NCBI RefSeq assembly: GCF_015767245.1
Contig: NZ_JADOTV010000015.1
Coordinates: 44,130-108,129, forward strand
Direction of reading: 5' to 3'
From: Aureivirga sp. CE67
GTDB taxonomy: Bacteria; Bacteroidota; Bacteroidia; Flavobacteriales; Flavobacteriaceae
DNA length: 64,000 nt
A program made the translations under genes and the position numbers. Positions 827 through 54,116 of this stretch are shown one piece after another. The stretch's first letter is position 1; the number at the start of each line of letters is the position of its first letter. The notes beneath the pieces were generated by a model. The model was not told the origin of the DNA. It saw only the letters and a list, made by a program, of their open reading frames with translations, and did not search any database.

Positions 827-1597
827 TTATTTTTCATTTTCATCAATATTATTCGACTTTTTATATAAATACTTTACTTGATATTTTGGTTTTTGAATTT
901 CAATCAATTCCCTTTTAGGATTATTTTCATTTAAATCATCCTCTTCTTCGTCATTCTCTTCTTCAATTGGTGGAGAAAAATTCCCATCTTGATCAAACCA
1001 TGTATCAAACTCTGTTTTTGAAAAAGTAAACTCTTTGGGTTTTGGACCTTTCTTTCTATAAATAACTGCGAATAACAATCCAATAATTAAACCTGAAAGA
1101 TGCCCCTCCCATGATATTTTATCTTCAATTGGGAAAATATACCAAAACATACTACCGTATAAGAAAATAACCATTAGAGAAATAGCTGTCAATCGAAAAT
1201 GTTTTCGAATAATTCCGCTAAAAAAGACAAAACCAAAAAGCATGTAAACAATTCCACTTGCTCCAATATGATAATTATCTTGCGCTAAAAGCCATGTTAG
1301 AATTCCAGTCAGAAAAAAGCCATAGAAAAATACTTTGTTCGCAATTTTTCTGTAGAAAAAGAATAAAATCGTAGTTAAAACTAAAATAGGAACGGTATTA
1401 TTAAATAAATGATTTATATCTCCATGTAAAAAAGGAGAAAATAAAACACCTCTAAGACCGTAGAATTTTTCCGGATAAATTCCAAAGTTGTTGAAATTAC
1501 GATTTAGTGCAATTTCTATGATATATACTACCCACATCGGAATCACAAAAAGAAGTGCTTTGTGAAGTTGTGGTATCAATTTTACATTTGTATCCAT
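827..1597 (-). CDS. Rhomboid-family intramembrane serine protease
   Basis: A 256-residue polytopic membrane protein. The rhomboid hallmarks are visible: HLFNN around residues 63-67 (oxyanion side), GASG with nucleophile Ser114, and EGHLSG with catalytic His166. Six hydrophobic segments precede a cytoplasm-like acidic tail (about residues 183-256, with EEENDEEEDD), which is longer than the core fold needs. The family cleaves transmembrane substrates within the bilayer; the substrate here is unknown. It is divergent from the PagL-like gene at 1747. The shared 149-bp intergenic space holds an inverted repeat (TTGACA at 1656, TGTCAA ending 1676). Confidence 0.88.
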   Translation of the reverse strand: MDTNVKLIPQLHKALLFVIPMWVVYIIEIALNRNFNNFGIYPEKFYGLRGVLFSPFLHGDINHLFNNTVPILVLTTILFFFYRKIANKVFFYGFFLTGILTWLLAQDNYHIGASGIVYMLFGFVFFSGIIRKHFRLTAISLMVIFLYGSMFWYIFPIEDKISWEGHLSGLIIGLLFAVIYRKKGPKPKEFTFSKTEFDTWFDQDGNFSPPIEEENDEEEDDLNENNPKRELIEIQKPKYQVKYLYKKSNNIDENEK

Positions 1598-1746: not shown

Positions 1747-2862
1747 ATGAAAAATTTATTTAAAATTATAATTTACCTCAACACTTTTCTATTATTTTCA
1801 CAAAATAATACAGAAGAAAATCCAATATACACAACGGATTTCTCCCCCTATTTTGGCTCCATACTTCGACATAAACCTGGAATTAGTCATTTGATCACAG
1901 AACACCCTACTGGGTTTTTATTGAGTTTTGAAAAAAAGACTTCTGGAAGAAAAGAATGGGAAAGAATTTATAATCATCCAACAATTGGATTTACTTTCTA
2001 TCATCAAAATTATCATAATGCTATTCTTGGGAAACTCTATTCTATAAATGCTCATTGTGCTTTTAACCTTAGAGATTATCAAACAAAAAATCAATTTATT
2101 CTAAAAATTGGTACAGGTTTATCCTACGTTACAAATCCTTATGATAAAATTGAAAACCCGAAAAATAATGCTTTTGGTTCTCATATAAATGCTAGTATTC
2201 TACTTAATCTTTATTACCAAAGATTACAAATTTTAGACAATTTTGGTTTAAAAACAGGAATTACACTTTTACATAATTCTAATGGCGGAACAAAATCCCC
2301 AAACTCTGGGACCAATGTTTTTGCAGCCATGCTTGGTGTGAATTATGCTTTTGAAGGGAAAAAGAAAGAAAATATAGACGATAAGGTTAATGAAATTCCA
2401 ATACCAGAAAAAGAAAGAGTAAAATTCAATTTTACTTTTGCTTCTGGAAAAAATGAAACAGATTTAATCGGAAGTGGGAAATTTCCCTTTTACAATTTCT
2501 CTATTTATGCAGACAAACGTATTTCTAAAAAATCTGCCTTCCAACTAGGTTTCGAGTATTTCAACTCAAAATTCTTGAAAGAATATATTTATTATAAATC
2601 TTTAGATCAAAATAGCGATGAAGAACTTCCAGATTATAAAAGAGCTTCTGTAATTTTTGGTCATGAGTTATTTATTAGCAAACTTTCTGCTTATGTTCAG
2701 TTAGGATTTTACATCTACTCTCCATTTACTTACGAAGGAAATTTTTATGAAAACATCGGTATGAAATATTATATCTCGAAAAATATTTTTGGTCAAATAA
2801 ACTTAAAAGCACATGCAGCAAAAGCCGAATCTTTCAGTTTTGGTATTGGATGCAGAATTTAA
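1747..2862 (+). CDS. PagL-like lipid A deacylase / acyloxyacyl hydrolase family protein
   Basis: A 371-residue outer-membrane barrel with an N-terminal signal peptide (ends near residue 19, LLFSQ). Around residues 176-189 it has HNSNGGTKSPNSG, matching the catalytic His-x-Ser motif of PagL-type lipid A 3-O-deacylases (His176, Ser178). The rest alternates short beta-strands. Family knowledge suggests removal of an acyl chain from lipid A in the outer membrane. It is longer than PagL itself (about 170-190 residues) but of the length usual for the Bacteroidota members. It is followed after 2 bp by the head-GIN lipoprotein, so the two are probably co-transcribed. Confidence 0.75.
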   Translation: MKNLFKIIIYLNTFLLFSQNNTEENPIYTTDFSPYFGSILRHKPGISHLITEHPTGFLLSFEKKTSGRKEWERIYNHPTIGFTFYHQNYHNAILGKLYSINAHCAFNLRDYQTKNQFILKIGTGLSYVTNPYDKIENPKNNAFGSHINASILLNLYYQRLQILDNFGLKTGITLLHNSNGGTKSPNSGTNVFAAMLGVNYAFEGKKKENIDDKVNEIPIPEKERVKFNFTFASGKNETDLIGSGKFPFYNFSIYADKRISKKSAFQLGFEYFNSKFLKEYIYYKSLDQNSDEELPDYKRASVIFGHELFISKLSAYVQLGFYIYSPFTYEGNFYENIGMKYYISKNIFGQINLKAHAAKAESFSFGIGCRI

Positions 2863-31662: not shown

Positions 31663-31829
31663 GTTTTTTTGCGAAAGGGATTGTAGCGGTTAGCTTTTCT
31701 TTTTTTCAAAAATTTGTTTTTTCTTAGAAAACGGAGGCGACCTAAGAAGCCCACGTATTTCTTTAGAAAAACTTTTTTGGAAAAAGAAAACTAGTAGCGC
31801 AAAGCCCGACCCGAAGGGAACGCCCAAAT
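31663..31829 (-). repeat. Dispersed structured intergenic repeat, copy 1
   Basis: Copy on the minus strand of a four-copy family (others at 46284, 53928 and 63342). Conserved blocks in element orientation: GGGCG, then GTCGGGCTTT, CGTGGGCTTC, GTCGCCTCCG and CGCTACAATCCC. The first hairpin here is the short CCC-TTC-GGG. From GGTCGGGC to the end it is identical to the 53928 copy except for one base over about 145 bp. It fills most of the 330-bp gap between the secreted-protein gene and mfd; the rest (31564-31662) holds nothing I recognise. Confidence 0.85.
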
Positions 31830-39506: not shown

Positions 39507-42500
39507 TTATTTTACAACCTCAACCCACTGACCATCTTTGTGTATGAAATATTCATTGTCATACATAGCTTCTGCTTGAATTCCTGGTAAATAATATTTT
39601 CCAAGATAAGTGGCGTTCAACAAGATTTTGAAAGTTTTTGTCTCATTTTTGTTTAAGCTAAAATAGAAATTCACTTTAGCATCACGGATATCAATATGAT
39701 CCGTTTTGCTACTTTCTGGATTTTCATAATCTGTAAAACGAGTATTTACAATTTCCCATCCTGAAGGAATAATTTCTGTAAGTGCAATATCATTTACATA
39801 TTCATCTGTCAAGTTTTCGATTGTTAATGTAGCAGTAAATTCAGTTCCTTGCGAAAGTTTAGAAATATTTACTTCTGTTCCGTCCATATTTCCGTAATAT
39901 ACATTTACGTTTAAGTTTCTTTGTTCTACTAACTCTTTTCCAAGTGGAAGTTTTCCTGAAGAAACTAATTGGATATAAACTTTATTTCCTTTCAAATCTT
40001 TTACTTTTAAAGAATTTGTTCCAAGTTTAAAATCAAGACTTCTTTCTGCTAAAGCTTTATCAGATTTCAGTTTCTCTGTATTCCCATTGATTATATATTC
40101 GATATCCATTGATTTTCCACCATTTTTCTCTACCATTTTTGCTATTGCCAATAAACAATAAGCTGTAGTTTGTGTACTCATCCATCTTTTAGAATTCAAA
40201 TCTTTTGCAATTCGCTCTGATAATTTTCTCTGACCTTTCGAACCTAAAATTACTTCTGTTTCTAAAGCCATTGCTCTATTTCGATCTCTAGAACCATAAG
40301 TGTAATAATCTCTATAATTATCTGTTTCAAAATCTACATTTGCAGTACTCGCAATTTGATTTGCAGCATCTTTTTGTCCTGCTAAAGCATAAGCAGCTGC
40401 CAAACGCCATTTTGCATTGTTCGAAATTTCTTTAAACTCACGTAGTCTATTCATCGCTCCTAAATCTGGATAACCAGCTAGTGCTAGTGTGTACAAACGA
40501 TAAGCTTGTATAAAATCTCCATTAGACCTATTATAAGAAGGTCTCCATTCTTGTGCTTTTTTCTTTTGGAAACGTAGCCAACTACTCAAGAATGAAATAG
40601 GTAAACTATATCCTCTCTTTTCAGCCTCAATCATGAAATGTCCAGCATAGTTTGTTCCCCACTCATTTACAGAAGTACCACCTTGCCAATAACTCAATCC
40701 TCCGTTTGCTAATTGGAAGTTTCCTAAACGAATAATTCCATTTTGAATGTTTTCGTTGATCTTATCTTTTGTCTGATCATTTAAATCAAAAATAGCATCC
40801 ATAAATAATTGTGGAAAAACACTCGAAGTAGTTTGCTCTACACAACCATGAGGATAACGAATTAAATATTCCATTCTTCCTGAAAAATCAATTGCAGGAA
40901 TCGTAGAGAATTGCACTTTTACTTCATTACTTCCTTCAATACCAAATGGTGTAAAATCTATCGAAGTAGTTTGACTATTTTCTACATCATAAGTTTCGAT
41001 TTTGGTAGTAATAGGATTTGGATTGTAAATAGAAATAGGAGTTTCATAGCTAGCTTTCTTTCCTGCTGAAGAAGCTAATACTTCTATATTACCCATCCCT
41101 TCTTTTTCTAAAACCTGTACATCAAAATAAACTACTTTTTCATCTGGCTTGCTAAAAGTTATTTGTTTTGTTTTATCTCCAATTACTTTTAATCCATCAC
41201 TTAAATTCAGAGAAACATTCACATTTTTGATGTTTTTCTCCATAGCAAAAACAGTTACTGGAAGTTTCATATTTTCTCCAGGACTTAATTTTCTAGGAAT
41301 CGAAGCCAAGACCATTAAAGGTTTCTTTACAGGTGTTGTTTCTTCTGCTTTTCCATAAGCTCCTTTCGAAGGATCTCCTGCAACAACCATTGTTCTAACC
41401 GAACCAATATAATTTGGCATTTTTATTTTATGACTTGCCGTTTCTCCAGCTTTTAGCACAAAAGGACCTAGAACAATAGAAACTGGTTTGAATCTATTAT
41501 TGTCTTTTGAATTTTTATTCTTGTTTAAAGAACCATCTCCTCCTACAGAGAAAATTTGATCTACACTTCCGTTATAAGCTCCCATTACATTATCATAAAT
41601 ATCCCAAGTTTTCACTCCTAGTGCTTCTCTTTTGTAGAATTCATCCCAAGGATTTGGCGTTTTGAAATTCGTTAAATCCAATAAACCTTCATCTACAACT
41701 GCAATTGTATAAGTCATTCTTTTTCCAGATTTTTCTTTCACTTTTATAGTAAAATCTTTTTCTGGCATAATAGATTTTGGCATTTCAATTTCTGGATATA
41801 TATGTGTTTTCGGATTTTCAACCGTAATCGGAATTACTCCATACAATCGCATTGGAAGATCGTTTCCTGTTACCGCATGAGGTTGAATTAAAGAAATATT
41901 GATAAACACATTTGGTGTCATTTCTTCTGTTATATCAAAAGAAGTAGTAGTTGTTCCTTTTTTAGTTTTCACCCATTTTGTACTGATTACTTTCGAACCA
42001 TTCTCTATACTTATTAAAGCTCGACCTTCCGAACTTGAAGGGAAAGTAACTGTTGCAGTTTCTCCTACATTATAAGCTTTTTTGTCTGTAGAGAAAACTA
42101 ACATTTTTGCAGATTCTGGATTTGCTCCTGAAGGAGTTCTCCACCAGTGTTCATAGAAATAAACTTTTGTTCCTGTAGCATGTTCTGACTCTGTGTCTGA
42201 AACTCGAATGAAATATCTTCCACCTTTTGCATCAGGAATATTGACATCAAATTTTCCTTTTCCTTGTCCATTTGTAGAAATTTCGAAAGATTTAAAAGGT
42301 TGGTGATAATCACTTCCAACATAATTTGACAAGTTTTCTTCGCTAGAATTCCACCACCAACGCCAATTGATTTTATAAATATCTACTTTTAATTTTCGAT
42401 TCGCTTTTGGTTTTCCATCTTTAGAAACACTTACTACATCAAACTGGTAAGGTTTGTCTGTTTCATAAGATCCATATTGATTTGGTTCAGGATTTTTTAA

Positions 42501-45092
42501 ACCAACAAAAGATTCATAAGGTGCAAAATTTTTCGAAGTAACATTAATTGAAAAATCTCCACCTTTCTCATATGCTTTTGTCAAGAAAGAAGCTTGAAGC
42601 ATTCCTGGAGCTTGCTGTTCTAAATCAATATCTCTAGAAAAATCTGCAAAACCTTCGGCATTTACTTCTCCTTCGAAGAAATTCATTTCTCTAGTTTCAA
42701 AACTTCTTGCTAAATCATAGAAAGTATATTTTTTATAATCTTTGAAAGCACTTTTGATTGGTCTTAGTTTTAAAGAAATATTTGTTTTTAAGTTCTTAGC
42801 AATTGCTCCATGTAACCAGTGTAATTGAATTTTTCCAGAAATAGGTTCATTCACTGAAAGAATTTCTTCATCAAAATCTAAATCAATTTTTAAACGATTT
42901 GGTTTGATCGTTTCAATTTTGATTGTTTTTTCAAAACTAGCTCCACCAACATTTACCGTTGCTAACCAATTTCCAGTTTCATCTGTAGTATTTGTTGGAA
43001 TATCAAATTTGTAAAATCCATTTGTTCCATGAGATTGTACTTTTTTATAAGTAATCTTTCCATGCGGATCTTGTAATTGCATTTGCACCGGATGATTTGA
43101 AGGAAGCGGATTTAATTTATCATCCAAAATAAAATTCAAATGTAAAGTATCTCCTGGTCTCCAAACTCCTCTTTCTCCATAAACAAAACCTTTGATTCCT
43201 TTCTTTATTTTCTTTCCAGAAACATCAAAATTACTCAGCGAAAGCGAATTTCCATCTTTCATTCTGATATAACTGATGCTATTTCCTTTCTGAACTGTCG
43301 CAAAATATCCGTAAGCTTTTGGTTTTAAAACTGAAAAACCTTCTTGATTTGTATTTGCTTTTGCAATTTCTTGTTGTTGGTAATTATACATCGTAATCGA
43401 TGCATTTTCGATAGGATTTGTAGTCATTAAATCTGTTACAATAAAATGACACGTATTGTCTTCTCCTTTTTTTACAACAATTCCGATATCAGAAGCAAGT
43501 AAGTTTGTAACGATACCTTTGTTATTATAATTATTATCATAATAAGCCGCTTTACAAGGATCTTTTCTATCTTCCCAACGATAAGATTTATACCTTTTAT
43601 AATTATAAATTAAATTGTCCCAGTATTTTTCTTCTCTTTCATCTGCATCCAATTCTTCTTGATTATTCTCATACTCTTCATATTCATCTTCGTAATATTC
43701 ATCATCATAATATTCACTTTCTTCTTTATTGTCAATTCCTCCAGCACATTTATAAAGCGAATATTCTTTTTTGAAATTTATTTCGATTTGATAAATAGCT
43801 CCAATTTCAGTTTGCATTAATTCTGATAAATCAATTGCATATGTTTTCCATTTTCCATCGTTTTCAATTGGACTTTTAATCAACTCAATTTTCTTCTTCA
43901 AAATTTTTCTTCCAACTCTTCGAATGTTATAAGAATCCTGATCTGCAATACTATGATTTTGTAAAAACTGAAGTACATTGTTTTGATAAATTTTTACCAC
44001 ACGAATATCTACAGCACTCAAGTTTACTGCCTGAAAATTATATTTTAAATTTTTAGAATCAGGAAGAATTACGCCATTTGTAACTGTTCTGATTTGTGGT
44101 TTAATTTGCTGAAAAGCGATATTTTTTGTGATAGTCTCTTTTAGTTTAAAACCAGTCGTAGATTTTATTCCTTGAAAAATATCTACATTTAATGTTCCTG
44201 CAAGACGATTTGGCGTATAAACTTTCAATATATTTCCTTCTACAGAAAATTTTAAATTATTTGTGTTTTCAATAGAAACTAAACCTTTAAAATTTTGACT
44301 TTTTTGAAGTGGATCCGAAAAATTGATTTCCACATACTGTTGTGGAGTTTGAACAACATTTACTTTTAAAACTGAAAAATTATTTTTTCCAGGAATCGTA
44401 ATTTCATCTTCTCCTTTTTTATCACTATCAATAGCTTCTCCATTCCAAGTAACTATTACTTTCGTATCATCATCTTTTCTTTGAATACTATCAATTTTAA
44501 AATTGAAAAAATCATTTTGTTTGTCAAAATCTTCCCATTTTATAGAAAGATCTTTTCCAAACTGAGATGCTTTAACTAATTGTTTTGCTTTTTCTATAGA
44601 AACAATATCCGAAGTTTTGATAGTTCCATTCAAATATTGCCAATCCGTATCATAAGATTGAATCGAAGTTGTGTTAATCGCAAAATCAGGTTCGATTGTT
44701 TTAAACTGAAAAGTATACGTTTTAAATTCCGAAGGAACATTCGTATATAATTTATCCAACGCAACCTTAATTGTATATTCTGTATCTGGTTTTAAACTTT
44801 CCTCAGGTAGAAAAACCAATCGTTGACTATTTTCTAAAGATAATTTACCTTTCACATTCGGAGAAATCTTTAGGATATCTTGTGGTATCTCCGAATTTAC
44901 CTCGAAGGTGGAGACGGGATTTGTAAGCTCAACACGTATTGGTTTTACAACAGAAGTAATCCCAGTAGTCGTGTACTGAATGTAGTTTTTGAACTTGAAC
45001 AGATTGTCATTATCTGTTGCTTCTGTATTTTTTCCACATTGCGCCAAAAATACTAAAACGCATACCCAAAAGATTTTTTTAAGGACTCTCAT
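39507..45092 (-). CDS. Bacterial alpha-2-macroglobulin family lipoprotein
   Basis: 1861 residues. Lipoprotein signal (VCVLVFLAQC, Cys19). Successive macroglobulin beta-sandwich domains include an MG2-type segment (GFVYGERGVWRPGDTLHLNF) and the bait/A2M region (YTIAVVDEGLLDLTNFKTPN). The thioester motif GCVEQ is intact (Cys1417 with the Gln three residues on), followed by an alpha/alpha-toroid complement-like domain. An unusual acidic/Tyr-rich insert sits near residues 450-490. Bacterial A2Ms trap attacking proteases in the periplasm, often beside PBP1C. No pbpC is adjacent here. Confidence 0.9.
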   Translation of the reverse strand: MRVLKKIFWVCVLVFLAQCGKNTEATDNDNLFKFKNYIQYTTTGITSVVKPIRVELTNPVSTFEVNSEIPQDILKISPNVKGKLSLENSQRLVFLPEESLKPDTEYTIKVALDKLYTNVPSEFKTYTFQFKTIEPDFAINTTSIQSYDTDWQYLNGTIKTSDIVSIEKAKQLVKASQFGKDLSIKWEDFDKQNDFFNFKIDSIQRKDDDTKVIVTWNGEAIDSDKKGEDEITIPGKNNFSVLKVNVVQTPQQYVEINFSDPLQKSQNFKGLVSIENTNNLKFSVEGNILKVYTPNRLAGTLNVDIFQGIKSTTGFKLKETITKNIAFQQIKPQIRTVTNGVILPDSKNLKYNFQAVNLSAVDIRVVKIYQNNVLQFLQNHSIADQDSYNIRRVGRKILKKKIELIKSPIENDGKWKTYAIDLSELMQTEIGAIYQIEINFKKEYSLYKCAGGIDNKEESEYYDDEYYEDEYEEYENNQEELDADEREEKYWDNLIYNYKRYKSYRWEDRKDPCKAAYYDNNYNNKGIVTNLLASDIGIVVKKGEDNTCHFIVTDLMTTNPIENASITMYNYQQQEIAKANTNQEGFSVLKPKAYGYFATVQKGNSISYIRMKDGNSLSLSNFDVSGKKIKKGIKGFVYGERGVWRPGDTLHLNFILDDKLNPLPSNHPVQMQLQDPHGKITYKKVQSHGTNGFYKFDIPTNTTDETGNWLATVNVGGASFEKTIKIETIKPNRLKIDLDFDEEILSVNEPISGKIQLHWLHGAIAKNLKTNISLKLRPIKSAFKDYKKYTFYDLARSFETREMNFFEGEVNAEGFADFSRDIDLEQQAPGMLQASFLTKAYEKGGDFSINVTSKNFAPYESFVGLKNPEPNQYGSYETDKPYQFDVVSVSKDGKPKANRKLKVDIYKINWRWWWNSSEENLSNYVGSDYHQPFKSFEISTNGQGKGKFDVNIPDAKGGRYFIRVSDTESEHATGTKVYFYEHWWRTPSGANPESAKMLVFSTDKKAYNVGETATVTFPSSSEGRALISIENGSKVISTKWVKTKKGTTTTSFDITEEMTPNVFINISLIQPHAVTGNDLPMRLYGVIPITVENPKTHIYPEIEMPKSIMPEKDFTIKVKEKSGKRMTYTIAVVDEGLLDLTNFKTPNPWDEFYKREALGVKTWDIYDNVMGAYNGSVDQIFSVGGDGSLNKNKNSKDNNRFKPVSIVLGPFVLKAGETASHKIKMPNYIGSVRTMVVAGDPSKGAYGKAEETTPVKKPLMVLASIPRKLSPGENMKLPVTVFAMEKNIKNVNVSLNLSDGLKVIGDKTKQITFSKPDEKVVYFDVQVLEKEGMGNIEVLASSAGKKASYETPISIYNPNPITTKIETYDVENSQTTSIDFTPFGIEGSNEVKVQFSTIPAIDFSGRMEYLIRYPHGCVEQTTSSVFPQLFMDAIFDLNDQTKDKINENIQNGIIRLGNFQLANGGLSYWQGGTSVNEWGTNYAGHFMIEAEKRGYSLPISFLSSWLRFQKKKAQEWRPSYNRSNGDFIQAYRLYTLALAGYPDLGAMNRLREFKEISNNAKWRLAAAYALAGQKDAANQIASTANVDFETDNYRDYYTYGSRDRNRAMALETEVILGSKGQRKLSERIAKDLNSKRWMSTQTTAYCLLAIAKMVEKNGGKSMDIEYIINGNTEKLKSDKALAERSLDFKLGTNSLKVKDLKGNKVYIQLVSSGKLPLGKELVEQRNLNVNVYYGNMDGTEVNISKLSQGTEFTATLTIENLTDEYVNDIALTEIIPSGWEIVNTRFTDYENPESSKTDHIDIRDAKVNFYFSLNKNETKTFKILLNATYLGKYYLPGIQAEAMYDNEYFIHKDGQWVEVVK

Positions 45093-45771: not shown

Positions 45772-46273
45772 TAGGTACACATTTTTGAAAAAAATAATAG
45801 TATTGGCAGTTTTGATTTCATTCGTAAGCTGCTCGAAAAACGATGTAAGTTGGAATCCTTTTGAGCCAAATAAAAAATTAGGAGCTGAAATTTTATTAGA
45901 AAATGGATTAAAACCAAAAATAGAAGTAACACAAGAGTGTTGGTATTCTATGTTTAAAGAAAATATGCAGCTGAATCTGATTTATCATACAAACGATGAT
46001 TGTCAATTTTCAACAGGGCAGGAATTTATAATTACGATTCCAAAAAGCGATTCAGACAGAAAACAAAACACGATGGCAACAGATAGTTTAGAAATCAATA
46101 AAATGTTGCAAAAATTTGATGCGAAGATTATTTCTCCAATCAAGTCGGAAAAAGATAAATTTCAGCAAATAAAATATGTGTTTAAAGCAGAAAATAAATC
46201 AGGTATCAAAATCGACTGGGAAATGTTCGATCGAATCAATGATTTAGAACTTCATTCGAATTTTAAAGAATAA
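45755..46273 (+). CDS. Hypothetical lipoprotein
   Basis: 172 residues from ATG 45755, which overlaps the 3-HAO gene. An in-frame TTG at 45785 would give a shorter signal beginning LKKIIVLAVLISFVSC and is equally possible. The lipobox Cys is followed by SKNDVSWNPF. The mature domain is mixed alpha/beta with two Cys (ECWYSM, DDCQF) and motifs LNLIYHTND and FIITIPKSDSD. Not recognised. Overlap suggests co-translation with the dioxygenase. Repeat and IS110 sequence follow. Confidence 0.65.
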   Translation: MKDLYNRYTFLKKIIVLAVLISFVSCSKNDVSWNPFEPNKKLGAEILLENGLKPKIEVTQECWYSMFKENMQLNLIYHTNDDCQFSTGQEFIITIPKSDSDRKQNTMATDSLEINKMLQKFDAKIISPIKSEKDKFQQIKYVFKAENKSGIKIDWEMFDRINDLELHSNFKE

Positions 46274-46283
46274 AATATTTAGA

Positions 46284-46403
46284 GCGCTCCCTTTTCCTTC
46301 CGTAAAAACTACAGGAAAAGGTCAGGCTTTCCGTTCCAAGTTTTGTATTAAAAAAAAGAACTTCTAAACAATCCGTGGGCTTCCGTTGGTCGCCTCCGTA
46401 TTC
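46284..46403 (+). repeat. Dispersed structured repeat, copy 3 (5' part), split by IS110
   Basis: Contains GCGCTCCC, a first hairpin CCTTTTCCT (46290-46298) / AGGAAAAGG (46313-46321), GGTCAGGCTTTCCG, CGTGGGCTTCC and GGTCGCCTCCGTATTCTA. These are the same blocks, in the same order, as the 53928 copy. It stops at TTCTA (46402-46406), and the expected 3' block (CTACAATCC) is found only at 47731, on the far side of the IS110-family element. Confidence 0.78.
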
Positions 46404-46435
46404 TATGATCTACACAAGTAAAAAATGTTAAAATT

Positions 46436-47431
46436 TTAAGCGGCAAATTTCATTGTATCTACGTATGGAGTTTTCCGTTTTATAATAGCAAACATTCTAG
46501 AAATTAATTTATTTCTAATAATATTTATGGTACTCATTTTGTTTTTTCCTTTTTTGATTCTTCGTTCATAAAAAGCTTTTATTTCTGGGTTATATTGAAT
46601 GGCGTTTATCGCACACATATTCAATATAGATTTTATACTTTTATTTACTAAATGTGATACTTTATTTTTACCTCGTACAGAACTTCCAGAGATATTAGGA
46701 AACGGAGCTATTCCGCAATAACTTGCAAACTTTCTTGAAGACTCAAATTTGGTAAAATTATCTGTAAAAATTAGCATTGTAATTGCTGTTTTTTCACCAA
46801 CACCTTTTATGGAATTTAATAAATAAAAATTCAATTTTAACTGTTTATTTTTAAGAATTATTTCTCGCATTTCTTTTTCAAGTTTTTAGATTTGTTTGTT
46901 AAATTCTCGAATGACTTTTTCTTGAATTTCAAAAATTAATTTATATTGTTTTTTAGAATAAACCCTTTTCTGTTCTTTTAAAGTAGCTTTATAACCAGCT
47001 CTTTGTTTTACTAGCTTCTTACGCAAAGAAAGCATGGGTTTTAATTGTTTTAAATCGTCAGTTAAAATCTTAGAAACCACTAATTCCTCTCTTAAACGAA
47101 ATGCATAAAGTGCAATTCTTTTTGCATCTATCTTATCCTCTTTATCTCTAGTAATCCCAAGTGATCTTTTGATTTCTAAACCTGGAATAATACTGAAGTT
47201 TAATTTTTTTTTATTTAGATAATCTGCTAAAGAATCTGAATACATTCCTGTATGTTCGAATACAAAAAAGGTCTCTTTTAATGAGAAAATATTATTTTTA
47301 GAGCCCCATTCTAGAAGTTTTCTGAATCCAGAATTGTTATTATCAAACTGCTCTATTTTTTTTTGAGTGTGAATACAAACATCTATCACTTTTTTACTAA
47401 CATCGATTCCAATTATTTCTTTGATTTGCAT
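46436..47431 (-). pseudogene. IS110-family transposase interrupted by an in-frame TAA
   Basis: The first part (47431-46886, 181 residues) has the DEDD RuvC-like domain: Asp10 (IGIDVSKK), Glu59 (FVFEHTGMY), Asp99 and Asp102 (DKEDKIDAKRIAL). A TAA at 46888-46886 ends it. The frame then continues unchanged through AAACTTGAAAAAGAA to ATG 46870 and the second part (46870-46436, 144 residues). That part carries the Transposase_20 domain: IKGVGEKTAITML helix-hairpin-helix, FASYCGIAPFPNISGSSVRG with the candidate catalytic Ser, and a C-terminal helix bundle. Joined length of about 331 residues is normal. A single nonsense mutation explains the split; no frameshift is present. Confidence 0.85.
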
Positions 47432-47451
47432 AATTTTTGTAATTTAGAAAT

Positions 47452-47585
47452 GGTTACATAAACTAAGACCTTTAATAAGAACTGAACTAAAATTCTATAT
47501 GGTTCTAGGTAACCGATAAAGGATGAAGACTAATACGGAGGATAGCTCTAGAAACTAGTTCGCTAACAAGTTCACTTCATCCTTT
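47452..47585 (-). ncRNA. Candidate IS110 bridge RNA
   Basis: Two hairpins just upstream of the transposase, on its strand. Hairpin 1: an 11-bp stem (47575-47585 with 47518-47528, AAAGGATGAAG / CTTCATCCTTT). It encloses an internal loop capped by a small apical stem (TAGC..CTAG / CTAG..GCTA), the layout of a target-binding loop. Its 3' side contains CCTCCGTATT (complement of 47532-47541), which can pair with the right target flank at 46394-46403. Hairpin 2: GGTTAC / GTAACC (47509-47514 with 47452-47457) closes a large loop, as a donor-binding loop would; it contains ATAGAA, also found at the element's right-hand junction. No left-target guide match is evident. RNA ends are not determined. Confidence 0.55.
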
Positions 47586-47703
47586 TTAATTTATACTTTC
47601 AATTTAATCAATATCTCACTTAAACTCAAATTACACTTTTTCAATTAGCCGATTTTTAACATTTAAGAAACTTATATAAATCTAAAGGTTTGTCAAGAAG
47701 TTC

Positions 47704-47748
47704 TATTTTTTTTAAAGACAAAAGCTTTCCACTACAATCCTTAGCGAA
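47704..47748 (+). repeat. Dispersed structured repeat, copy 3 (3' part)
   Basis: Runs from TTCTA through AAAGC and CCACTACAATCC to TTAGCG, equivalent to the 3' end of the other copies (AAAGCTAACCGCTACAATCC). It completes copy 3, whose 5' part ends at 46403. Confidence 0.7.
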
Positions 47749-48153
47749 CATGCATTTGATTTATGTTACTTACTAATATTTAATTCTTACCCTTTTTAGA
47801 GACAAAACGGTAAAACTCATACAAACGAACATTATAAATGAATGCATTTTCCTTCCTAAAGCCTTTATTTATAATGATTTTAAATAAAATTATATAAAAA
47901 ATTGAAAGAAAAAGTAAATATCAAATTTTCAAGGAAATTTTACTGTATTTATATTAATCTAAAAAATTAGAACAAACTTTATTTTTATGTAACTCAAAAT
48001 GAGATTCTTATATTTTATTTTCATTTTCTTAATTTAATCTATTAATAATTGAGAATATCGAAAAATTAACTTCTAAAAATTCCATGATTTTTGTCATATT
48101 TTTAAAAAAGAGTAAAAGGTATTTTTACATCGTAAATTAAAAATCAGAAATAT
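47749..48153. other. AT-rich intergenic region upstream of the Nrf module
   Basis: 405 bp with no ORF, tRNA or hairpin terminator that I can support. The only structured signal is the dyad at 48084-48097 close to the porin start. Confidence 0.6.
48084..48097. promoter_or_regulatory. Possible Crp/Fnr-family operator
   Basis: ATGATTTTTGTCAT is an ATGA-N6-TCAT dyad with the half-site spacing of Crp/Fnr sites, 57 bases before the first gene of the nitrite-reduction module. Short dyads arise by chance in AT-rich DNA, so this is only a candidate. Confidence 0.35.
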
Positions 48154-53927: not shown

Positions 53928-54116
53928 TTGGGCGAAACCTTTTTTCGTTTCAAAAACTCCAAAAAAGGTCGGGCTTTACGCTACTAGTTTTCTTTTTCCA
54001 AAAAAGTTTTTCTAAAGAAATACGTGGGCTTCTTAGGTCGCCTCCGTTTTCTAAGAAAAAACAAATTTTTGAAAAAAAGAAAAGCTAACCGCTACAATCC
54101 CTTTCGCAAAAAAACT
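53928..54116 (+). repeat. Dispersed structured intergenic repeat, copy 2
   Basis: Plus-strand copy occupying most of the 309-bp gap between ccsA and the gene at 54124. From GGTCGGGC onward it matches copy 1 (31663-31829, opposite strand) with one difference over about 145 bp. The first hairpin differs completely: ACCTTTTTT / AAAAAAGGT replaces CCC-TTC-GGG at the same place. The end of the element lies 8 bp from the neighbouring stop codon. Confidence 0.85.

Follow-up and report, generated by a model that had tools for sequence, protein, structure and literature searches.

A predicted bridge RNA matches the insertion site and the ends of an IS110-group element within a Flavo-1-type repeat

Introduction

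What placed an IS110-group insertion sequence inside one copy of a dispersed repeat in the genome of Aureivirga sp. CE67? IS110 elements that carry a bridge RNA upstream of their gene and insert into dispersed repeats are established (PMC11208160), and guide-RNA elements of this group have also been established by the seekRNA work (PMC11187229, as far as its available text goes). REP sequences have been described as targets for insertion sequences (PMC1525189, in the portion available). A first-pass annotation of the window, by which we mean the whole 64,000-nucleotide stretch of DNA analysed here, had proposed that an IS110 element here carries a hairpin resembling a bridge RNA, with a guide that matches the element's own insertion site. 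Guide and flank were found to agree across relatives and between copies, which supports that proposal. The features on which the argument is built are collected in Table 1.

Table 1. Features of the element and its surroundings, in positions of the 64,000-nt window unless a locus is named.
Feature	Position	Strand	Basis or remark
IS110-group insertion sequence	46400..47687	-	ends from 38 empty repeat copies and the second copy
Right non-coding end (RE)	46400..46435	-	ends CATAGAAT; 36 nt
Left non-coding end (LE), holding the predicted bridge RNA	47432..47687	-	256 nt
Right core dinucleotide AC	46398..46399	-	overlap of left and right matches to empty sites
Left core dinucleotide AC	47688..47689	-	comparison with empty sites
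Recombinase, N-terminal part, DEDD domain	46886..47431	-	PF01548, E 4.3e-20; ends at in-frame TAA 46886-46888
Recombinase, C-terminal part, Transposase_20	46436..46870	-	PF02371, E 4.3e-22; same frame past the stop
Right part of interrupted Flavo-1-type repeat	46304..46399	-	query 1402-1497 of the genome comparison
Left part of interrupted Flavo-1-type repeat	47688..47743	-	query 58-113; empty-copy alignment
Right target with core, ACGGAGG	46393..46399	-	sequence and guide matching
Left target with core, TTGACAAAC	47688..47696	-	sequence and guide matching
Predicted target-binding loop hairpin	47517..47586	-	outer stem 47575-47585 with 47518-47528
Predicted left target guide TTAGCGAAC	47558..47566	-	flank matching across elements
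Predicted right target guide CCTCCGT	47535..47541	-	GT pairs with the core
ATT, predicted handshake guide	47532..47534	-	pairs with the element's own right end AAT
Predicted donor-binding loop stem, 5' arm GGTTAC	47509..47514	-	fold and relatives
Predicted donor-binding loop stem, 3' arm GTAACC	47452..47457	-	fold and relatives
Predicted left donor guide ATAGAATTT	47490..47498	-	matches RE end ATAGAAT
Predicted right donor guide TAAAGGT	47468..47474	-	complementary to AC-CTTTA at LE start
TTG, upstream half of predicted junction promoter	46415..46417	-	spacing across relatives
TAGATTTA, downstream half of predicted junction promoter	47677..47684	-	spacing across relatives
Tandem target loops, relative L069	L069:1237-1307 and 1346-1415		model R2
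Tandem target loops, relative L071	L071:1237-1306 and 1344-1413		model R2
Tandem target loops, relative L073	L073:2229-2296 and 2107-2176		model R2

Results

Ends and core of the element

The element comprises 1288 bp without its cores. Read in IS orientation (minus strand), it begins with CTTTAGATTT and finishes with CATAGAAT, and AC flanks it on both sides. The occupied copy reads ...CAA-AC/CTTTAG...ATAGAAT/AC-GGAGGCGACC (slashes at the element boundaries), and setting this against the empty copies delimits the element to 46400 to 47687. The 38 aligned empty copies mostly read AA-AC-GGAGG, as opposed to AAT-AC-GGAGG in the occupied ones; by the same comparison, insertion took place at the short core with no further target duplication. 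The left-end start CTTTAG and the right-end terminus CATAGAAT are common to most relatives.

All 12 elements whose right end could be delimited have AC as the right core, AC being part of the search pattern: the right end was taken where AC follows, and without that demand AC follows 11 of the 12 CATAG(A/G)AT matches. The sole departure is an upstream match in L073, which is taken for a chance occurrence. The left core reads AC, GC or TC in 13 of the 14 elements as delimited (L053 has AT, or TC with the boundary shifted by one base); agreement between its first base and the left guide was seen in 9 of the 14. Among 22 exact empty-site matches in genome G395, some of them both strands of one palindrome, the core was GC in 15, AC in 4 and TC in 3, and at the four occupied G395 sites the left core is GC and the right core AC. 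Retention of the target core at the left junction and of the donor core at the right would fit this pattern. In IS621, too, conservation is lower at the first core base than at the second (PMC11208158, in the part of that report available).

The left end is long (256 nt), with the RNA locus upstream of the gene, and the right end is short (36 nt). DEDD recombinases are encoded by both the IS110 and the IS1111 groups (PMC11208160), and on that count the element might belong to IS1111, with its guide RNA downstream of the gene. A right end of 36 nt, however, has no room for a guide RNA, and the locus lies upstream. Moreover, the bottom-strand match lies 5' of the top-strand match, which is the order published for IS110 and not for IS1111, whose members have the RNA downstream and the matches in reversed order (PMC11187229, as far as the accessible portion goes). 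Membership in IS1111 is hence barely credible.

The recombinase gene, relatives and a second copy

The DEDD (PF01548) and Transposase_20 (PF02371) domains were both found, in two pieces that were scored separately. A single intact recombinase gene (about 300–460 aa) is absent: the window copy has an in-frame stop, and in the second copy the frame is broken. Owing to this stop, the window copy should make no full recombinase by itself. Broken frames bear on activity and autonomy and not on descent, and many relatives carry an intact recombinase of about 330 codons. To collect these relatives, 397 genomes of the family were searched, 90 of which had a match; a scan of genome contigs with the single protein gave no relative, whereas the family-genome searches did.

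In the genome itself (4.81 Mb, 47 contigs) there is one further close copy, 98% identical over query positions 58–1487, located at the same position of another repeat copy. With neither recombinase gene intact, it is unlikely that the element moved recently by its own means. The two copies occupy members of one repeat family, between which flanks could be exchanged; the element might accordingly have been carried into its repeat copy by homologous recombination between repeat copies, with the guide match a relic of an older insertion. Yet the left flanks of the two copies differ (CTTGACAAAC versus CTTAGAAAAC) with the junctions at the same base, and relatives with intact genes show the same pattern. 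We therefore regard this history as unlikely, though it is the most serious of the alternatives considered here.

The target repeat resembles Flavo-1

The two flanks are the halves of one interrupted repeat, and the element evidently sits at an AC core within a dispersed Flavo-1-type repeat. That the flank is a repeat found elsewhere without the IS, as had been annotated, was borne out by the 38 empty copies: 36 match Flavo-1 (RF01705) at E ≤ 0.01, L010 and L030 being without a match, and 27 score above the gathering score of 42 bits, 9 below it. The right flank of the occupied copy, which is interrupted, reaches 18.8 bits at 46316–46385, under the gathering score. A genome-wide search, in which the best 150 of 2035 candidates were scored, returned at least 75 Flavo-1 matches, at least 74 of them over gathering. 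By a pattern count, with repeat identity not confirmed site by site, 77 sites in the genome differ from AACGGAGGCGACC at no more than one base, and both occupied sites are among them. The commonest reading among the 38 empty copies is TTAGGAA-AC-GGAGG, positions 3–5 being usually A/G, A/G and C/G. Two empty copies of the target site lie inside the window, at 31730–31742 (+) and 54036–54048 (-).

Flavo-1 is filed in Rfam as an sRNA gene and was first published as a candidate structured RNA (PMC2864571); in the F. psychrophilum transcriptome its matches were sense or antisense to transcribed regions, with no clue to function (PMC9723704), both as far as the available text of these papers goes. 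The empty target copies match the Flavo-1 model, but what the present genome shows of Flavo-1 is a DNA repeat in dispersed copies that serves as a landing site. A search of the published literature found, in the text available, no paper connecting Flavo-1 with insertion sequences.

A diverged second IS110 element on contig C17 (L053:2489 to about 3757) is 44% identical over the N-terminal domain. A Flavo-1 match at L053:2421–2487 (39.9 bits, gathering score 42; model positions 12–65) stops where this element begins. Its predicted guides, GCTGCAATC and TTTAGGGT, fit GCTGCAATCCCTAA, the other-strand end of Flavo-1, save for the first core base; 66 sites differ from TTAGGGATTGTAGC at one base at most, 26 of them reading TTAGGGATTGCAGC by manual count. 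A right end was looked for in this element and not found, and the guide fit rests on the left flank and the empty repeats. As delimited, its left guide matches only 3 of 9 positions in the fixed register; with the boundary one base later (core TC) and the guide one base earlier there are 8 Watson-Crick pairs and 1 G.U of 9, a reading made by eye and after the fact. The gene of this element appears to end early, and upstream of it lies another IS110-type recombinase gene (L053:1294–2334, 346 aa).

A conserved hairpin in the left end

A bridge-RNA-like locus is predicted upstream of the recombinase gene. The 11-bp stem that had been annotated, 47518–47528 with 47575–47585, proved exact and, across an alignment of 17 elements, has compensatory changes: pairing holds in 96.3% of stem cells, and 7 of the 11 stem pairs are altered on both sides. 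In 500 shuffles, the observed covariation score was never reached, the number of pairs changed on both sides was reached 4 times and the number of pair types 346 times; sliding the arms lowers every measure. The donor-loop stem occurs in matched variants, GATTAC/GTAATC and GGTCGC/GCGACC among them. In a search that permitted slippage, its 6 bp were found in 16 of the 17 elements, in another register in L068 and not in L075.

The fold energy is unremarkable: 12 of 200 shuffles did as well at 154 nt (z -1.62) and 69 of 200 at 245 nt (z -0.33). An Rfam scan of 46200–48000 at E ≤ 5 gave no bridge-RNA family and, in the flank, Flavo-1 alone. In the same genome we also looked for bridge RNAs that lack a transposase, scoring the best 150 of 4342 candidates, and each of the 3 matches lies beside a recombinase gene. 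In other genomes, L105 and L115 combined a strong RNA match with no strong protein match, and were rejected as transposase-free loci, as each starts a recombinase gene running to the locus end. The follow-up covered these two of a set of matches that also comprised two other G008 copies and the weaker G364:C20, G123:C1:2217946, G285 and G238.

Target guides follow the flanks

The internal loop carries CCTCCGTATT on its 3' side, as had been annotated, and we confirmed it at 47532–47541 (minus). Its matching flank is 46393–46402, one base away from the 46394–46403 first given. This flank had been regarded as target rather than element, paired by a 10-base right guide, and element ends that enclose it had been named as a finding that would count against the claim. 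Seven of the ten bases are indeed target and core, whereas 46400–46402 (AAT) lie inside the element, so that the ends enclose three of the ten. A single 10-nt right guide was thus discarded: the empty sites rule it out and resolve it into a 5-nt right guide, the 2-nt core and 3 nt complementary to the element's own right end. What stands is a right guide of 7 nt with the core, the remaining 3 nt being a handshake-type pairing.

A left guide, of which no clear match had at first been seen, was located as well; against the occupied target it forms 6 Watson-Crick and 2 G.U pairs of 9. The right guide matches the occupied flank at 7/7 positions. Among the 38 empty copies, the right guide matches 7/7 in 30 and 6/7 in 8, and the left guide, with G.U counted, pairs at 9 positions in 2, 8 in 16, 7 in 18 and 6 in 2.

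To compare loops and flanks across elements, 20 nt of each loop side were set against 20 nt of each flank in eight combinations. For the 5' loop side and the left flank a single diagonal stands out (4.13, next 1.03), with identity to the top strand, and for the 3' side and the right flank likewise a single one (3.35, next 1.27), with complementarity to that strand; the best diagonal in the other six combinations was at most 1.45. The two strong diagonals carry the strand polarity of IS621, in agreement with the position and polarity claimed in the first-pass annotation.

Permutations were done on 14 elements from 13 genera, all for the left guide and 12 for the right, L061 and L053 being counted for the left guide only. 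Dropped from this set were the second copy in this genome (the same element), L074 (partial), L076–L088 (more distant, with another right-end motif), and L069, L071 and L073 (right end not delimited, two loops). Left guides matched their own flanks at 6.57 of 9 positions versus 2.69 for the flanks of other elements (n = 14), and right guides at 6.58 versus 3.54 of 7 (n = 12); none of 100,000 permutations reached the observed agreement on either side, and the expectation that loop bases co-vary with the flanking targets of other insertions was thereby upheld. Allowing a one-base slip for all pairs gave 7.14 versus 3.49 for the left guide (0/100,000), the own flank being the single best in 11 of 14. 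The own left flank was unbeaten in 13 of the 14 elements (4 of the 14 tied; L065 was beaten) and the own right flank in 12 of 12 (2 ties). Four of the 14 left guides scored 5 or less of 9 in the fixed register (L065 2, L053 3, L072 4 and L068 5).

Copies within a genome behaved likewise. The same guides were accompanied by the same flank motif in otherwise different surroundings in G395 (4/4), G100 (2/2) and G168 (2/2). Of seven G345 copies, six share the left motif and four have a right end that was found, while L132 has another loop; for 2 G132 copies the right end alone was found. The same loop in unrelated targets, which had been put forward as a refutation, did not occur, as shared guides sit at the same target motif.

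These observations bear on whether the loop–flank match is a product of chance, the hairpin only regulating the transposase mRNA and the protein alone picking the site. The unremarkable fold energy and the three matched bases inside the element would agree with chance; the single strong diagonal per side with IS621 polarity, and guides that vary together with flanks between elements, argue against it and leave it very improbable.

We also scanned the window (127,973 positions, both strands) for sites matching the right target guide at 7/7 and the left at 7/9 or better with G.U allowed. Of the three sites that resulted, one lies in a gene and the others on repeat copies that are empty; the IS splits the occupied site, which is therefore absent. 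The site in question at 40699–40712 (minus) is a full match, with one G.U, to both target guides inside a large gene (39507–45092), and no element is present there. All guide bases can pair at 4 sites in the genome, among which C9:78017 and C13:30870 are aligned repeat copies (L045 and L017) and C13:45818 overlaps a site of the AACGGAGGCGACC type, while the fourth falls in the large gene at 39507–45092 of the window.

A second IS110 clade (L127–L131 and L133–L135; right end TTGGAAT where found) was repeatedly seen at AACGTGTT / ACGTRTATG. This landing site looks like another dispersed repeat, and 3 empty-like sites for it were found in two genomes.

Donor guides, a predicted handshake segment and the proposed circle junction

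Both donor guides are present, the donor loop matching the terminus of the right end and the start of the left end. The donor ends hardly vary, and the matched changes come from L072 and L075 and, by reading, from the C17 element. Departures by one base were seen in L061 (right donor guide TAAAAGT, left end CTTTAG) and in L068 (left end CCTTAG).

The ATT next to the right target guide pairs with the element's own AAT and is therefore not a target guide. In IS621, 'handshake guides' adjoin the stretch of the right guide that pairs with the core, and they pair with the donor once strands have been exchanged (PMC11208158). All 3 positions of the predicted handshake pair in 11 of 12 elements (2/3 in L075), the partners being nearly constant and the anchor bases partly selected: the loop anchor demanded AT(T/C)AGTC, and the omitted L069 and L071 read AGC and ACC. 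L072 has a matched change, GAT with ATC. A handshake pairing was sought on the donor-loop side by reading and gave no signal, with 4 of 12 elements pairing.

When right end, core and left end are joined, TTG lies exactly 20 nt before TAG(A/G/T)TT in 10 of 12 elements, L062 and L064 differing. Flavobacterial promoters are of a type with TTG, a spacing of about 17–23 nt and TAnnTTTG, which the predicted junction promoter resembles. In IS621, a sigma-70-like promoter arises at the circle junction (PMC11208160).

Relatives with two tandem target loops

Two tandem target-loop hairpins were predicted in one left end in three IS110 relatives from three genera, among 36 sources searched. The second loops matched model R2 at E 2e-6 to 1e-4, R2 having been built from 17 elements that include the main loops of these relatives. 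The two left guides are nearly alike (GCGACGGC) and the right guides differ. A conserved stretch, GAGGGGGTCYGGGGGAGACTCATAACT, was noted upstream of the hairpins in the left ends of L069, L070, L071, L072 and L073.

Discussion

The ends, the AC core, the conserved hairpin, the target guides, both donor guides and the agreement of guides with flanks across relatives can all be read from the DNA. Taken together, they point to an IS110-group element within a Flavo-1-type repeat whose left end holds a predicted bridge RNA; its target loop fits both sides of the insertion site and its donor loop fits the element's own ends, and therefore the element was likely placed by RNA-guided recombination, a reading to which we assign a probability of roughly 95%. 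The mechanism is extrapolated from IS621 work: the element would be excised as a circle, the RNA would be transcribed from a promoter made where both ends meet, and the recombinase would bind the predicted bridge RNA. Top-strand exchange might then be aided by the ATT that adjoins the right guide: once the strands had been exchanged, and not before, these bases would pair with the right end of the element itself.

The likeness to IS621 of E. coli (PMC11208160, PMC11208158) extends to a recombinase with DEDD and Transposase_20 domains, an RNA locus in the left end, a target loop followed by a donor loop, a left guide directed to the bottom strand and a right guide that takes in the core and is directed to the top strand, a second core base that is fixed and a first that is less so, predicted handshake bases after the right guide, and a dispersed-repeat target (REP for IS621, Flavo-1 here). 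There are also differences. The core of IS621 is CT with T nearly fixed, whereas here it is AC with C fixed; the right guide here is 7 nt with the core; the predicted handshake has 3 nt on the target-loop side, none being seen on the donor-loop side; the junction pattern is TTG-N20-TAGRTT and not sigma-70; and the recombinase is broken in the window copy. With ISEc21 and other seekRNA-guided elements, the element shares an upstream non-coding region, the IS110-type order of bottom-strand match 5' of top-strand match, and natural reprogramming between relatives (PMC11187229, to the extent of its available text).

The window element adds a member to the known IS110 bridge-RNA elements, and RNA-guided insertion is expected for the family. 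Less expected are the Flavo-1 landing site, the conserved spacing of the TTG-N20-TAGRTT junction and the relatives with two target loops. The balance tips slightly in favor of a broader view, in which Flavo-1 in this lineage would be a dispersed landing pad for two or more diverged IS110 elements (N-terminal domains about 44% identical) that are separately programmed to different points, namely the middle of the long variant for the window copy and the second copy on contig C7, and the conserved end for the C17 copy, and in which the two tandem target loops in one left end of relatives from three genera would form a two-guide bridge RNA.

In the IS110 clade described here, every guide segment is legible in the DNA and can be compared with insertion sites that arose in nature; the first core base varies, and the predicted handshake segment is three bases long. 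The tandem target loops raise the question of whether one element can use two guides, and Flavo-1, an RNA motif without a clear function, would gain a role as an insertion target.
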